Source: a virus. Taken from it: a DNA stretch of 36,478 nucleotides. The first letter of the stretch is position 1, and every line of letters starts with the position of its first letter. The stretch spans positions 1 through 36,478 of IMG/VR virus record IMGVR_UViG_3300025645_000197; one strand, given 5' to 3'. A program made the position numbers and the translations under genes. This document shows, one piece after another, positions 3,745 through 16,909 of the stretch. Below the pieces are notes generated by a model that was given only the letters and a program-made list of their open reading frames with translations, was not told where the DNA came from and did not search any database.

Positions 3745-4188
3745 ATGGAATGGACTTACCAAGAAGCACTCGTTGACGAGATGCCAGAAGGCGTGATTGG
3801 ATTTGTATATCTTATCACCAATTTACAGAACAATAAAAAATATATTGGCAAAAAATTGGCGCAGTTTAAAAAAACTAGGCCACCTTTAAAAGGCAAAAAA
3901 AGAAAAAGACGCTCAACTGTTGAGAGTGATTGGAGAACCTATTGGGGTTCATCCGATAATCTAAACAATGACGTTGCCGAATTTGGCAAAGAAAATTTTA
4001 CTAGAGAAATTCTGTATTATTGCACAGCAAGATCAGAATTAAGTTACATGGAATTAATTGAACAAGTGAACAGAGGAGTTCTAGAAACAGACGAATACTA
4101 TAATGGCATCATAAATGTAAGAATCGGAGCATCCGAAACTCTTAAAAAAGGTTTAAGCGAACAACGAAAATCAGGAAATTTACTTTAA
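3745..4188 (+). CDS. GIY-YIG endonuclease (SegE-like)
   Basis: 147 aa. The GIY-YIG core is visible as GFVYLIT (FVY at 20-22) and KKYIGKK (YIG at 33-35), followed by a highly basic linker (KGKKRKRRS) and a segment around 55-62 (SDWRTYWGS) like that of SegE-type phage nucleases. Glu in YMELIEQ is a candidate metal ligand. Proteins of this kind are free-standing homing endonucleases of T4-like phages. Its 3' end overlaps the convergent gene on the other strand by 9 nt. There is no strong ribosome site: only AAGAGA about 18 nt upstream of the ATG. Confidence 0.8.
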   Translation: MEWTYQEALVDEMPEGVIGFVYLITNLQNNKKYIGKKLAQFKKTRPPLKGKKRKRRSTVESDWRTYWGSSDNLNNDVAEFGKENFTREILYYCTARSELSYMELIEQVNRGVLETDEYYNGIINVRIGASETLKKGLSEQRKSGNLL

Positions 4189-5137: not shown

Positions 5138-5736
5138 AATATCTAACACCTAAGGTTGGCGGGCCAGTTTAAATTACCGCTGTGGAAAAGGCTCTCGTAA
5201 CAGAAGCACACGTAACATACTGATCGACTCCCCTCGGGAGGAAGCCATCAAACAAATTGGGCACATAGGTTGGTATAGAATGACTGTTAGCATTCGGAAA
5301 ACACAACATAGTTCATAAAAACCCTTTGCATTAGGAACGAAGCAGGGGAATATTGTATACTATAATGTACATTAACCCAGTTGATGTATAATATATTGTA
5401 CATAATGTCGATGTAGGTTGGGAAAGATCAGAGCCCATTGAACTTGTGTATAAACAAACACCTATTTCCAAGTCTTGGCTGACGCATCTCAGATGAAGCT
5501 CATTCAGACGGAACCTTTGAGTAGGTTCCGTCTGACTAACACATTCTAGATGAAACTATTATTATATTATAGGTAATATGATTGGAACAATTATATATGG
5601 TTTATAATATTAGATTGAAAGAAAATTCAACTGAGTGATAACGAAGTTGATGGTGAGCTTTAGCTCAACAGATAATGATAGATAACACTATTGTATTAGT
5701 AACTTGCGATAATAGATAATAGATAACATTATTGTA
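5138..5736 (+). ncRNA. Gene-free region with several hairpins, candidate structured RNA
   Basis: No plausible coding frame is present in about 600 nt of an otherwise dense genome. Visible structure: a CTCCC/GGGAG hairpin at 5228-5240; a CCC-TGC/GCA-GGG bulged hairpin at 5322-5347; and a perfect 12-bp stem at 5505-5534 (CAGACGGAACCT with its complement, six-nt loop) that lacks a following U-tract. The heptamer AGGTTGG occurs three times (5153, 5267, 5415). The middle (5350-5405) is AT-rich with short palindromes. No tRNA or tmRNA could be folded by eye. The strand is assumed from the upstream promoter at 4884. It could be a large phage RNA or a regulatory/replication region; no known family is identified. 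Confidence 0.4.
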
Positions 5737-5747
5737 TTAGTAACTTG
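5681..5747. repeat. 26-bp direct repeat overlapping the end of the frameshift ORF
   Basis: Two copies at 5681-5706 and 5722-5747 differ at one base and have a 41-nt period. The second copy contains the stop codon (5737-5739) of the minus-strand reading frame; the first is its non-coding echo. This looks like a local tandem duplication of the 3' end of that gene. Confidence 0.75.
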
Positions 5748-5964
5748 TGGTATTAGCTGAGTTCATTGCTTCTTGCTCTCGTTCATTCTTATCGATTATT
5801 CCCTGATATATTTCGGTGACATAATATCCTGGCATTGCCCATAAATCTCTAACTTGATATGCTCCTTCAGTGAACAAAGCAATATCGCTGATTAATTTGC
5901 GGATATTCTTCCGCTCATTGTCATAACGTATTATTAATTTCTTCAGAGACTTATTTACAGACAA
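5737..5964 (-). CDS. -1-frame extension of gp26 (candidate frameshift product)
   Basis: 75 codons from the first possible start, which is a TTG at 5964, to the stop at 5737-5739. No ATG or GTG start with a ribosome site is present, and that TTG lies in the 3' arm of a stem-loop. The frame is -1 relative to gp26 and stays open upstream through the U9 run at 5994-5986 into gp26. The simplest reading is that it is made as a fusion: 279 residues of gp26 plus about 83 from this frame, 362 in total. The sequence is helical and charged (KKLIIRYDNERKNIRKLIS) with an aromatic middle (DLWAMPGYYVTEIYQG). No family is recognised. By analogy with lambda gpGT it would be the T-like domain that contacts tail tube or tape measure. 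Confidence 0.6.
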   Translation of the reverse strand: MSVNKSLKKLIIRYDNERKNIRKLISDIALFTEGAYQVRDLWAMPGYYVTEIYQGIIDKNEREQEAMNSANTTSY

Positions 5965-5994
5965 TTCTCTAATTACTTGTCTGTGAAAAAAAAA
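5957..5994 (-). promoter_or_regulatory. Candidate programmed -1 ribosomal frameshift signal
   Basis: On the minus strand nine U residues (5994-5986) contain the heptamer U UUU UUU in the gp26 frame (zero-frame codons 5993-5991 and 5990-5988). Three nt after that heptamer begins a perfect 8-bp stem, ACAGACAA (5984-5977) with UUGUCUGU (5964-5957), closing a 12-nt loop that includes the gp26 stop (5975-5973). Slippery run, close stem-loop and a stop codon just past the shift site are the standard parts of -1 frameshift sites. Confidence 0.7.
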
Positions 5995-6824
5995 GTTGGA
6001 TTTAAGTCTAGCGTTGTATCAAAAGTTTTCCCGCATTCTTCGTCGTCACGGCATTGTAGGTTTACAGTTTGAGGAAGACCATTCTTATTCTGCTCACTAG
6101 CAAATTTTCTTATTTTACTAATATTATTGCTATTAGAGTTAGTAAGCCATGCCATAATTTGGCTAAAGTCTTCTACTACTGTACCATCAGGCAATCTGAC
6201 ATTGTCAATACCATCTGCTATAATCGCTAGATCACAGGCTGCTACTTCGTTTAGACTGTCATCAAACATTTTTCTAATTTCGGGTGTTACTCCCTGATTA
6301 TCATTGTCTTTGTTGATTTCCATAGCAATTTGGTGTGATTTGATTTGGGATATGCCCATAGCAGTCACTACTTTAACTGTGTTTGGTTTAACCTTGACTA
6401 ATAAATCACCTAGTTGTATTTCCTTGTCTGCGCTAACAGAGATAATTTGAGACAATAAGGTTGTTAGGTCTATTTCATATTCGGCTTGCTTGCTACAATG
6501 TGGACACACTGCCATTAATGGCATTAGTCCGCCGTATGTTGCTGATCTAGTGGCCAACAGTATAACGTCAAGGTCAGGTATGGTTATTTCATAAGGATCT
6601 TTAATATCAGGAGCAATGCTCTTGACGATGTTATATATCGCCTCGCCATTAAAAAGAGTATCTGGAATCTTCAATAGAGTTTCGTCCTTGAGATTCATCG
6701 GCATAATACCAATTTCGCCATCTGCTGTAAATTCTGGCTTTTCAGTGAAATACTCACCGCCAGTTGGCAACGTGATATAAATTTCTTTGGTTCTATAAAA
6801 CTGTTCTAGTGGATTATCTGACAT
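5973..6824 (-). CDS. 26: gp26-like baseplate hub / tail-assembly protein
   Basis: 283 aa (T4 gp26 is 208). The N-terminal IYITLPTGGEYF, the central ITIPDLDVILLATRSATYGG followed by CPHC (Cys107, Cys110), and the end CRDDEEC (Cys258, Cys264) with FDTTLDLNPTFFF match the T4-type gp26 base-plate family as I know it; the two cysteine pairs probably bind zinc. In T4 gp26 is needed for the baseplate hub. The last codons run through U9 and a stem-loop that look like a -1 frameshift site, giving a longer second product. It is transcribed divergently from the tape-measure-like gene, with a minus-strand CATAAATA late box 35 nt upstream. Family call good; role as tape-measure chaperone is inference. Confidence 0.8.
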   Translation of the reverse strand: MSDNPLEQFYRTKEIYITLPTGGEYFTEKPEFTADGEIGIMPMNLKDETLLKIPDTLFNGEAIYNIVKSIAPDIKDPYEITIPDLDVILLATRSATYGGLMPLMAVCPHCSKQAEYEIDLTTLLSQIISVSADKEIQLGDLLVKVKPNTVKVVTAMGISQIKSHQIAMEINKDNDNQGVTPEIRKMFDDSLNEVAACDLAIIADGIDNVRLPDGTVVEDFSQIMAWLTNSNSNNISKIRKFASEQNKNGLPQTVNLQCRDDEECGKTFDTTLDLNPTFFFTDK

Positions 6825-6886: not shown

Positions 6887-8719
6887 ATGCCAACAATTCA
6901 AATACCAATCGGCGGACAGATGGTTGCAGTTGATGTAGGTGATTTGGCGAGTGAAAGCACTCTTCAGGGCATACAAAACTACAGCAGACAGAATACCGAA
7001 ATTCTAAATACTATTGCCCGAGCCGTTGAGAGAACAGGCACAAATACACAACAACTCGAAGATGTAATGAGATCATCGTTGAATAATCAAAGCCAACAGG
7101 CTGGAGCCGTAGCGAAACTTTCTAGTCAAACGATAAAAGACCAACAGGCAGCGTCGAAGTCAAGCATTGCCCGACAAGAGAATGCTGCAAAGAGCCTATT
7201 CGCTAATTTGGAAAGCATGACAGCAGCTAAACTTGCTCAAACACTTGGTAGCCTTATACCTGGAGCTATTGGTGCAGCCATCGGTGGCGCTCTTGGGACA
7301 ACTGTTGGACTATTGGAGAAATTTGGCGCTGCTCTAAATACAAGTAGAAGAGTTGGTGTAGGCTTTGGAGATTCTCTTATGGATCTAAGAGCGGCATCTG
7401 GCAACGCTGGTATGCAGTTCGATGGCTTTACTGCTATGTTGGTTCAGAACGGCAAAACTATTAAAAGTCTAGGAGACAGTACTAGTGCCGGTGCTATGGC
7501 ATTCGCCCAGCTTAGTTTAAAAACACAAGAAGTCTTTAGAGAATTCGGCAACTTCGGCATGGGAATGACTGAAATCAATCAGATGATTCTTATGGAAGTA
7601 GAAGCAAGACGTACATCGGTAGGTGTCACTCTTCGTGGTGATGCTGCGTACCGTAAATTGGCAGAAAGTGTTGCTGATAACGTTAGACAGCAAGAGGCTA
7701 TGGCAACAGTAACTGGACAAGATGTTAGAGAACGCCTAGCGGCTCAACAGTCTGGTTTAAGCGAAAGCAATGTTCGTGCTAAATTAGCCGGCGCAAGCGA
7801 AGATATGTATCGTAACTTTAATAGTGTTTCTGGAGCACTTAGTAGATTTGATCCTAGTGGAGATATAACTAATGCGTTTGGTCAAGCAATAGCGACAGGA
7901 TTTGATCCAATGGCATTTGCACCTGAAATGCTTAGCCTTCTTGGACCAGGCGTAACCGGTCTATTAGACGAAGCAAAAAATAATATGAAGACAATGGACC
8001 CCGGAGCATTCGCTCAATGGTTCGAGACATCAATGCAAGACCAATTCTCGACTATTAAAGCTGACGATGCTAGAATGAATCAATTAATACTATTAACGCA
8101 GAGTTCTAATGCTGCTGTTGCTAACAGCGCCAAGGCAATTCTTGATAGTGTTAATACTCAAGTACAGTTTACAGACGAAAACTACATAAAAGCATTGGAA
8201 AAAGCAGGAATCAGCGACTCAAACGAGGCATCTATGTTATCTTCCACGTTAGATAGAATGACAGCCCAAATATCTAGTACATTATCTACTGGAGCAATGG
8301 CATCATTGAAGGGAATAATGTCACAACTAAATTTAAGTCCGGGAGATGGATCAGGTAGTGTGAACAATTTAGTTGATGCGGTAACTACTGGATTCCGTAA
8401 CGCACAATACAAAACAGACGCTAACGGCAATGCTACAGAAGAGATGAACAATTATCTTGGCATAATAGCACAAATGACTGGACTTAATACACATGAAATT
8501 GAGACTCAGGCTAATATAGACCGAAATACCAAGCAAACTGCGGACGCAACTACCAACTTATCTACTAAAATTAGTAACTTACCATCTGACATCGCTGCTG
8601 CTTTGGCGACTTTGCTTGGCAATCAAGGACCTCCAGGACCTCAATCCGTTAGTACTACTAACAGCTACAGCTATATAAAACCAGGTGACAGAGCGTCCGG
8701 AGAACCCACCCAGGTTTAA
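6887..8719 (+). CDS. Tape-measure-like virion protein (possible gp29 equivalent)
   Basis: 610 aa; T4 gp29, the tail-length determinant, is 590. The N-terminal 90 residues are polar and coiled-coil-like (TILNTIARAVERTGTNTQQLEDVMRSS). A Gly/Ala-rich hydrophobic segment follows near 115-150 (SLIPGAIGAAIGGALGTTVGLL), typical of tape-measure proteins, then a long Ala/Gln/Met-rich helical body. A short collagen-like GPPGPQ stretch occurs near the C-terminus (about 586-591). Weak identity prevents a firm gene assignment; size, composition and adjacency to gp26 support tape measure or hub. It has its own late box, and no strong ribosome site beyond GTGAG about 13 nt upstream. It may instead be a different large virion protein. 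Confidence 0.5.
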   Translation: MPTIQIPIGGQMVAVDVGDLASESTLQGIQNYSRQNTEILNTIARAVERTGTNTQQLEDVMRSSLNNQSQQAGAVAKLSSQTIKDQQAASKSSIARQENAAKSLFANLESMTAAKLAQTLGSLIPGAIGAAIGGALGTTVGLLEKFGAALNTSRRVGVGFGDSLMDLRAASGNAGMQFDGFTAMLVQNGKTIKSLGDSTSAGAMAFAQLSLKTQEVFREFGNFGMGMTEINQMILMEVEARRTSVGVTLRGDAAYRKLAESVADNVRQQEAMATVTGQDVRERLAAQQSGLSESNVRAKLAGASEDMYRNFNSVSGALSRFDPSGDITNAFGQAIATGFDPMAFAPEMLSLLGPGVTGLLDEAKNNMKTMDPGAFAQWFETSMQDQFSTIKADDARMNQLILLTQSSNAAVANSAKAILDSVNTQVQFTDENYIKALEKAGISDSNEASMLSSTLDRMTAQISSTLSTGAMASLKGIMSQLNLSPGDGSGSVNNLVDAVTTGFRNAQYKTDANGNATEEMNNYLGIIAQMTGLNTHEIETQANIDRNTKQTADATTNLSTKISNLPSDIAAALATLLGNQGPPGPQSVSTTNSYSYIKPGDRASGEPTQV

Positions 8720-15313: not shown

Positions 15314-16909
15314 ATGGCTGAAAAAGAATATATTGTAAGTCTCAAAAAAGGTGTAGACTGTGAGGCATTTTGTGATGAAATGACTACTACATTTGGATTA
15401 GGAACTATTCCTGCTCGTGTGGTTGATATTGCTGACACAAGACCTGGCAGTATGCGTAATACACATTATAGTTTAACGGATGATGAAGCAGAGAAATTAG
15501 CGACCGACCCAAGAGTACACAGTGTAGAAATTCCGCCTGATCAACGTGACGATATTGAGATCGGTCCTGCTGCCGTACAGAATGGCACCTGGGATAAAAA
15601 TGCTTCAATATCAAGTTCGGACCTAAACTGGGGAATGGTCAGAGGGTCTAATGGTCCCGACCTATGGGGATCAGGCAATAATATTATTACGGCTGATTAT
15701 CCATACACGCTTGCTGGCAAAGGAGTGGATGTTGTTATTCAGGATTCAGGACTAAGCGTAAGTCATCCCGAGTTTACTAATGCCGATGGTGTCAGTAGAG
15801 TTGTGGAACTAGATTGGTATAACGCCAGTGGTTTATCTGGTACAATGAACGCTAATCATTATAGGGACAATCATGGCCATGGATCTCATTGCGCTGGCAC
15901 GGTAGCCGGCAGGACAATGGGCTGGGCCAAAGATGCTGCTATATACAGTGTAAAAGTTAGAGGATTAGAAGGTTCAGGAGACGGCGGTACCGGCATAAGC
16001 ATCACTGACGTATTTGATGTTATTAAATTATGGCACAGAAATAAACCTATAGATCCTATAACTGGATTCAAGCGTCCTACGGTTGTTAATATGAGTTGGG
16101 GATACAGTGGTTCGAGAAGTAGCTTATTGTCTGGCATATATAGAGAAACTCCTTGGACATATGGCGACCCTGGCTTTAGTACATCAACTGAAGTTTGGAC
16201 AAACGCAGGAATTATTCCTTTCCTTGGATCTTCGAGAAAAATAAACGTGCGTGTTGGTTCAGTTGATACTGACCTAGAAGAATTAATCGACGAAGGAGTA
16301 CATGTATGTATTGCCGCTGGCAATAGTTATTATTATATTTCTGCTGAAGGCGATCAGGATTACAATAACTCGGCTAATTTTGGTTCTGGACAATCATTTT
16401 ATCATAGAGGAGCCAGTCCTTATAGTGCTGATGCATTTAGTGTGGGCAATCAAGATACTACATACGAGAACGGTATAGAACACAAGGCAGAATCAAGCTG
16501 TAGTGGATCAGGCGTTGACATATATGCTCCTGGCACGTACATCACTAGTGTGGCAAGTACTGACAAAAATGGCGGTTGCGATTTAACAGATGGAACTGAC
16601 GCTAATGTCTCGACTGCTGATAGTCCTCTCGACAGCGCATACAAGATAATGAAGATAAGTGGTACCAGTATGGCATCCCCTAATGTGGCTGGCATGATTG
16701 CTACGATATTAGAGGCTAATCCGGGCATGACACCCGCTCAAATGAAAACATTTATTCACAATAATGCTACATCTGGGATATTATATGATGGTCCAACTGA
16801 TTCGTGGTCTGACCAAAAAAGTATCCAGGGTGGACATAATAGAATATTCAAAACACCCTTTGTGAATCCGGTAAAAGTTTCATATGGCGGCGGCGTAATC
16901 ATTGATTAA
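15314..16909 (+). CDS. Subtilisin-family (S8) serine protease
   Basis: 531 aa. All four subtilase positions are visible: Asp144 in VVIQDSGL, His189 in HGHGSHCAGT, the oxyanion Asn337 in IAAGNS, and Ser452 in SGTSMASPNVAG. The first 95 residues resemble an inhibitor-like propeptide (YIVSLKKGVDCEAFCDEM, then SLTDDEAEKLATDPRVHSVE). Five or more cysteines are present and no signal peptide or membrane segment, so it probably acts in the cell at assembly or in the virion. AAGGA precedes the ATG, and it follows the 14641 gene by 10 nt in the same operon. Its siting among fibre genes suggests processing of, or attachment to, surface proteins; substrate is unknown. Family certain, role inferred. Confidence 0.9.
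   Translation: MAEKEYIVSLKKGVDCEAFCDEMTTTFGLGTIPARVVDIADTRPGSMRNTHYSLTDDEAEKLATDPRVHSVEIPPDQRDDIEIGPAAVQNGTWDKNASISSSDLNWGMVRGSNGPDLWGSGNNIITADYPYTLAGKGVDVVIQDSGLSVSHPEFTNADGVSRVVELDWYNASGLSGTMNANHYRDNHGHGSHCAGTVAGRTMGWAKDAAIYSVKVRGLEGSGDGGTGISITDVFDVIKLWHRNKPIDPITGFKRPTVVNMSWGYSGSRSSLLSGIYRETPWTYGDPGFSTSTEVWTNAGIIPFLGSSRKINVRVGSVDTDLEELIDEGVHVCIAAGNSYYYISAEGDQDYNNSANFGSGQSFYHRGASPYSADAFSVGNQDTTYENGIEHKAESSCSGSGVDIYAPGTYITSVASTDKNGGCDLTDGTDANVSTADSPLDSAYKIMKISGTSMASPNVAGMIATILEANPGMTPAQMKTFIHNNATSGILYDGPTDSWSDQKSIQGGHNRIFKTPFVNPVKVSYGGGVIID

Follow-up and report, generated by a model that had tools for sequence, protein, structure and literature searches.

A gp26-like, probable tail assembly chaperone in a large T4-like phage, very probably made in two forms by −1 slippage on a U run

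How many proteins are made from the gp26-like gene of a large T4-like phage? In the window (the whole stretch of viral DNA analyzed here, 36,478 nt, IMG/VR record IMGVR_UViG_3300025645_000197), this gene ends just after a run of nine U's, and a second frame continues past its stop codon in the −1 phase (Table 1). The arrangement recalls the two-form chaperones that act in phage tail assembly, and we consider it very probable that the locus encodes such a chaperone, with a long form produced by a −1 slip on the U run.

Table 1. Positions of the features of the putative chaperone locus in the window
Feature	Positions	Strand	Basis or details
gp26-like short form, 283 aa (putative tail assembly chaperone, TAC-N; G-like)	5973..6824	minus	PF12322, phrog_150, AlphaFold model
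Slippery site: U9 run (5986-5994) followed by C	5985..5994	minus	U UUU UUU at 5988-5994 and U UUU UUC at 5985-5991
Exact 8-bp stem-loop enclosing the gp26 stop	5957..5984	minus	ACAGACAA (5977-5984) / TTGTCTGT (5957-5964), 12-nt loop
Predicted −1 frame extension, 82 codons + stop (TAC-C / T-like domain)	5737..5985	minus	Cross-clade and T4 gp51 tail alignment; helical model
Divergent neighbor, 610 aa, candidate tape-measure protein	6887..8719	plus	Position, weak similarities

The product of the first frame matches PF12322 (T4_baseplate) over residues 31–279 with 55.7 bits (E = 7e-15), and a profile search assigns it to phrog_150 (E = 1.2e-16). The score exceeds the curated PF12322 cut-off of 24.5 bits and the match spans the full domain, which places the window gp26 in the PF12322/phrog_150 family. 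Its relatives in phage records show 21–30% identity to it and for the most part correspond to gp26-like genes from very large T4-like phages (PA5oct, Atu_ph07, Phosso, 121Q, GAP32, CBB, BF, Munch, SCTP-2, and others). In the window, gp26 is adjoined by T4-type genes for the portal, the prohead protease, and gp23. The region also contains a subtilisin-like protease (PF00082, E = 6e-31) at 15314–16909, shortly after the major capsid gene, and a SegE-type GIY-YIG homing endonuclease (PF19835, E = 1e-34) at 3745–4188, near a gp46-like gene. A subtilisin-like protease close to the major capsid gene is not known from T4 itself.

When the short form is modeled with AlphaFold (pLDDT 80.5, pTM 0.78), the top match among solved structures is the tail assembly chaperone of HK97, gp13 (2ob9; rmsd 3.5), with a Z of 7.2, which is in the middling range of the tool, where values under 8 may reflect a common arrangement. 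The match covers 89 of 107 residues and residues 131–247 of the model, at 8% identity, and the next unrelated match has a Z of 5.9. The window gp26 is 2.6 times longer than HK97 gp13 and differs from it by an extra N-terminal part and by paired-cysteine motifs. A Foldseek search of the model against the PDB gave no significant match, and a sequence-profile search of the PDB found no phage relative. Among predicted viral structures, the model matches T4-type baseplate hub proteins. The resemblance of the model to the HK97 chaperone fold is thus suggestive. Structure search with the same model also returned uncharacterized jumbo-phage proteins of 450–690 aa (E from 1e-6 to 2e-3), such as those of Ralstonia phages RSF1 and RP12, Erwinia phages Special G and phiEaH2, and Klebsiella phage Eowyn, which on the basis of these models are possible unrecognized chaperones.

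At its end, the gp26 frame reads ACT TTT TTT TTC ACA GAC AAG TAA (the T9 is an A9 on the plus strand), with the stop codon at 5973–5975, and both U UUU UUU and U UUU UUC are in the X XXY YYZ phase. Because the T9 is the longest homopolymer of the window and holds the single U-type in-frame slippery site, U UUU UU(U/C), among the 10,539 codons of the 23 larger ORFs, the slip site goes beyond what is expected by chance. In the −1 frame, no stop codon occurs between 6018 and the one at 5737–5739, and the predicted fusion has 280 + 82 = 362 aa. Near its beginning, the second ORF has no ATG or GTG and a single start, a TTG at 5964 without a clear ribosome site; its first ATG lies 50 codons in. The first-pass annotation had described gp26 as ending four codons past a U9 with an in-frame U UUU UUU, and the next ORF as lying in the −1 frame, open through the U9, lacking an ATG or GTG start, and having its TTG inside a stem; the sequence agrees on each of these points.

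The extension is modeled as helical by structure prediction. Two matches in this region were set aside: a similarity between the second ORF and GNAT acetyltransferases (PF13420; E = 0.004, which does not reach the cut-off) is attributed to chance in a short helical stretch, and bHLH-like matches of the extension model (Z up to 6.7) are read as a common helix-loop-helix arrangement. Directly after the end of the extension, and slightly overlapping it, there are two tandem 41-nt copies, 88% alike, at 5675–5756. Downstream of the chaperone gene, a perfect 13-bp inverted repeat with a 6-nt loop (TCAGACGGAACCT/AGGTTCCGTCTGA, at 5504–5535) without a T run has no match in Rfam and is possibly a terminator or another element.

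In the sequences compared, the two-frame organization, the slip site, and the extension are conserved. All seven distinct environmental sequences of the clade (the window included, the other six being 40–45% identical to it) share the exact U9 and the −1 phase, and their extensions span 80–86 codons from the slip site. In isolate jumbo phages, U UUU UUC is followed by a −1 frame open for 72–79 codons at 13 of 13 loci. The scan of viral contigs used a three-sequence alignment, and U UUU UUC is present in all 80 marine T4-like contigs, where two short extensions reach the contig ends. Profile searches with phrog_150 and phrog_634 on named T4-like genomes locate phrog_634, the family of the T4 gp51 tail, in the −1 phase and immediately downstream of gp26 in S-PM2, P-SSM2, HTVC008M, KVP40, phiM12, Cr30, and Vi01. 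An in-frame U UUU UUY is found in six of seven other T4-like phages (KVP40, S-PM2, P-SSM2, HTVC008M, Cr30, and phiM12). Salmonella phage Vi01 (Ackermannviridae; L034) has the −1-phase frame resembling the gp51 tail but no U UUU UUY; it was left out of the slip-site count and may use a different slip sequence or reinitiation.

The codons at the slip site are themselves constrained. In all 26 representatives, a T precedes the two Phe codons and the first of these is TTT (U UUU UUY), even though both pyrimidines are found at other codons of these genes. The naive product for this pattern is 4e-10, a value that overstates the constraint because the sequences are related. In the marine set, pN/pS is 0.12 in the −1 frame, the two remaining frames giving 0.98 and 4.7, and it is about 0.25 in the −1 frame for the pair L057/L058; these values indicate that the −1 frame is under purifying selection, as measured in relatives of the window.

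T4 provides a different distribution of what look like the same two forms. In a 2016 review, T4 was reported as the exception to G/GT frameshifting (PMC5009743). Its gp26 and gp51 appear among the hub assembly chaperones, gp51 being absent from the particle and reported as essential with an unknown function (PMC3004832). Both proteins match PF12322 and phrog_150 and are paralogs; gp51 is longer by ~48 residues. The tail of gp51 aligns with the −1 extensions at the same position and with a similar pattern. The match is strong with the extensions of marine T4-like phages (phrog_634) and weak with that of the window clade (hhalign E = 0.0012, probability 19%, one comparison). From the shared families and the alignment of the gp51 tail to the −1 extensions, it seems that T4 divides the short and long forms between two genes, 26 and 51, where the other phages examined have one gene and a −1 site. 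A single PF12322 gene was found by profile search in 11 of 12 large phages; in the twelfth, SCTP-2, PF12322 finds none, yet the gene is present by tblastn. The window in turn has a U9 where other T4-like groups have shorter runs, and its extension is longer, an additional helical segment being predicted in it.

The stem-loop that follows the slip site is the part of the first-pass proposal that fared least well. The stem is exact over 8 bp, has the stop codon in its loop, and begins 3 nt after U UUU UUU, but it begins directly after U UUU UUC, which is the heptamer conserved elsewhere, and this is too close for stimulation to be assumed. Among shuffled versions of the downstream 45 nt, 2.4% contain a perfect stem of at least 8 bp. 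When six relatives were folded individually, no shared structure emerged, and the 8-bp stem is absent from all six. Hence, of the features that were to be sought by aligning relatives, the U-rich slip site and the −1 phase recur and the stem does not. Because of this lack of sharing, the shuffle frequency, and the distance of 0–3 nt from the slip site, the stem was left out of the mechanism; it is probably not a conserved frameshift stimulator, a role for which it has no support. Neither a conserved stimulatory structure nor a Shine-Dalgarno element was identified.

In the proposed mechanism, most ribosomes would stop at the end of the gp26 frame and yield the 283-aa short form, and a minority would slip back one base on the U run and read 82 more codons, yielding a long form of 362 aa whose C-terminal domain is predicted to be helical. 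In most relatives the heptamer ends in C, which favors tandem tRNA slippage. In the lambda model, the short form coats the tape measure and the long form recruits the tube protein (PMC5009743). By analogy with lambda gpG/gpGT, many short forms may coat the tape-measure protein, probably the divergent 610-aa neighbor, and the long form may recruit the tail-tube protein, both forms leaving before the virion is completed. The sequences show the two-frame organization, the conserved slip site and extension, and the relation to gp26/gp51; the slippage itself, its mainly ribosomal nature, its efficiency and the ratio of the two forms, and the chaperone role are inferred. The view of gp26 as a tail assembly chaperone in 283-aa and 362-aa forms, already present in the first-pass annotation, gains strong support from the conservation of the locus, the lack of usable starts, the purifying selection on the −1 frame in relatives, the likeness to the gp51 tail, and the suggestive match to HK97 gp13.

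Two differences separate the window from lambda: the slip sequence is not the same, the likeness being claimed without sequence similarity, and the candidate tape-measure gene is divergently transcribed in the window, whereas in lambda it lies downstream of gpG/gpGT. Homologs of the 610-aa ORF occupy the same divergent place in environmental relatives. The homolog in L057 is weakly similar to a "virion structural protein" found between gp26 and the portal in GAP32, Munch, and XaC1, and one of these structural proteins matches the tape-measure family phrog_167 at an E of only 0.03. The ORF also has a glycine-zipper segment (E = 0.33 in a profile search). From its position and composition, the neighbor is a reasonable but unproven candidate for the tape measure. 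In S-PM2 and P-SSM2, a large ORF directly follows the chaperone gene and is plausibly the tape measure.

The shift of frame might be made in the transcript rather than on the ribosome. RNA polymerase could slip on the nine T/A pairs, and the mRNAs that received a U10 would be read into the −1 frame, which would replace the ribosomal slip or add to it. The U9 is exact in all seven distinct clade members and is longer than the 7-nt site that is sufficient elsewhere, and productive slippage of transcription is documented in bacteria, in mxiE of Shigella and dnaX of Thermus (PMC5009743). However, runs in related phages comprise six to eight U's, and the U9 itself still contains the U UUU UUC. We therefore hold transcriptional slippage to be rather unlikely, and it is with the same reserve that we mention its consequence, namely that the U9 clade would make the long chaperone wholly or partly by polymerase slippage, the ratio of short to long being set at transcription. 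If this were true, a single phage superfamily would contain three solutions for the ratio: transcription, translation (with the shorter U runs), and, in T4, gene duplication.

Far less credible is a reading of the downstream ORF as a separate small protein with its own start, translated by termination and reinitiation. It is annotated as such in many records (121Q 595, GAP32 242, and SCTP-2 87), and an ATG does occur three to five codons past the slip site in 121Q, Atu_ph07, Phosso, P-SSM2, S-PM2, and KVP40. Yet the window offers for this purpose only the TTG in the stem, the extension of PA5oct contains no ATG, GTG, or TTG at all, and the first possible starts in L054 and L061 come at codons 48 and 60. 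A separate protein would also leave the conservation of the heptamer without a reason, and in T4 the extension domain is fused to a gp26-like protein. Finally, an error in the run (homopolymers being prone to them), with a true A10 at 5986–5994 and one continuous ORF, or else a broken gene, is almost certainly not the explanation: exactly T9 is present in a second, identical contig and in six more distinct sequences, and isolate genomes from many groups break the frame at this same point.

The preferred reading, ribosomal −1 slippage giving a two-form chaperone, has precedents. Vladimirov, Gautam, and Davidson (Virology 2022, 566:9–15) had identified the tail assembly chaperones of T4-like phages, as cited in PMC10885494 and PMC12846349. 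The PRFect paper (PMC10885494) cites that work for the occurrence, in some T4-like phages, of a short gene together with a long fusion gene; PMC12846349 cites it for poly-T slip sites in T4-like TAC-N genes. These citing papers give no gene names; gp26 (short) and gp51 (long) are presumably the genes meant. Given the short and long genes and the poly-T slip sites mentioned in the two citing papers, the arrangement in the window is not new in kind, and the initial impression that a two-form gp26 chaperone was undescribed does not stand. As far as these citations go, the −1-slip two-form chaperone is already known for T4-like phages, and the window is a further, well-supported example. The TAC-N/TAC-NC of Vandenendeviridae and Andersonviridae (GTTTTT; PMC12846349), which are different phage families, likewise combine a conserved poly-T −1 site with a downstream frame that lacks annotation.

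Annotation of this part of the long chaperone is heterogeneous among large phages. Its C-terminal part is recorded as a separate hypothetical protein in some genomes (121Q 595, GAP32 242, and CBB FDG95_gp249, among L007–L018 and the isolate records) and has no annotation in PA5oct. The annotations of the long-form tail in large-phage records are therefore correctable.

In conclusion, the T4-like phages sampled here, among them large Rak2-like, PA5oct-like, and rhizobial jumbo phages, usually have one gene for a tail chaperone that is very probably made in two forms through a −1 slip. T4, the reported exception, is now set among relatives that very probably use the slip, which is consistent with its two forms being split between genes 26 and 51; part of this argument was probably already made by Vladimirov et al. 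in 2022, to judge from the papers that cite them. Together, these phages offer a clean natural comparison of ribosomal slippage, possible transcriptional slippage, and duplication.
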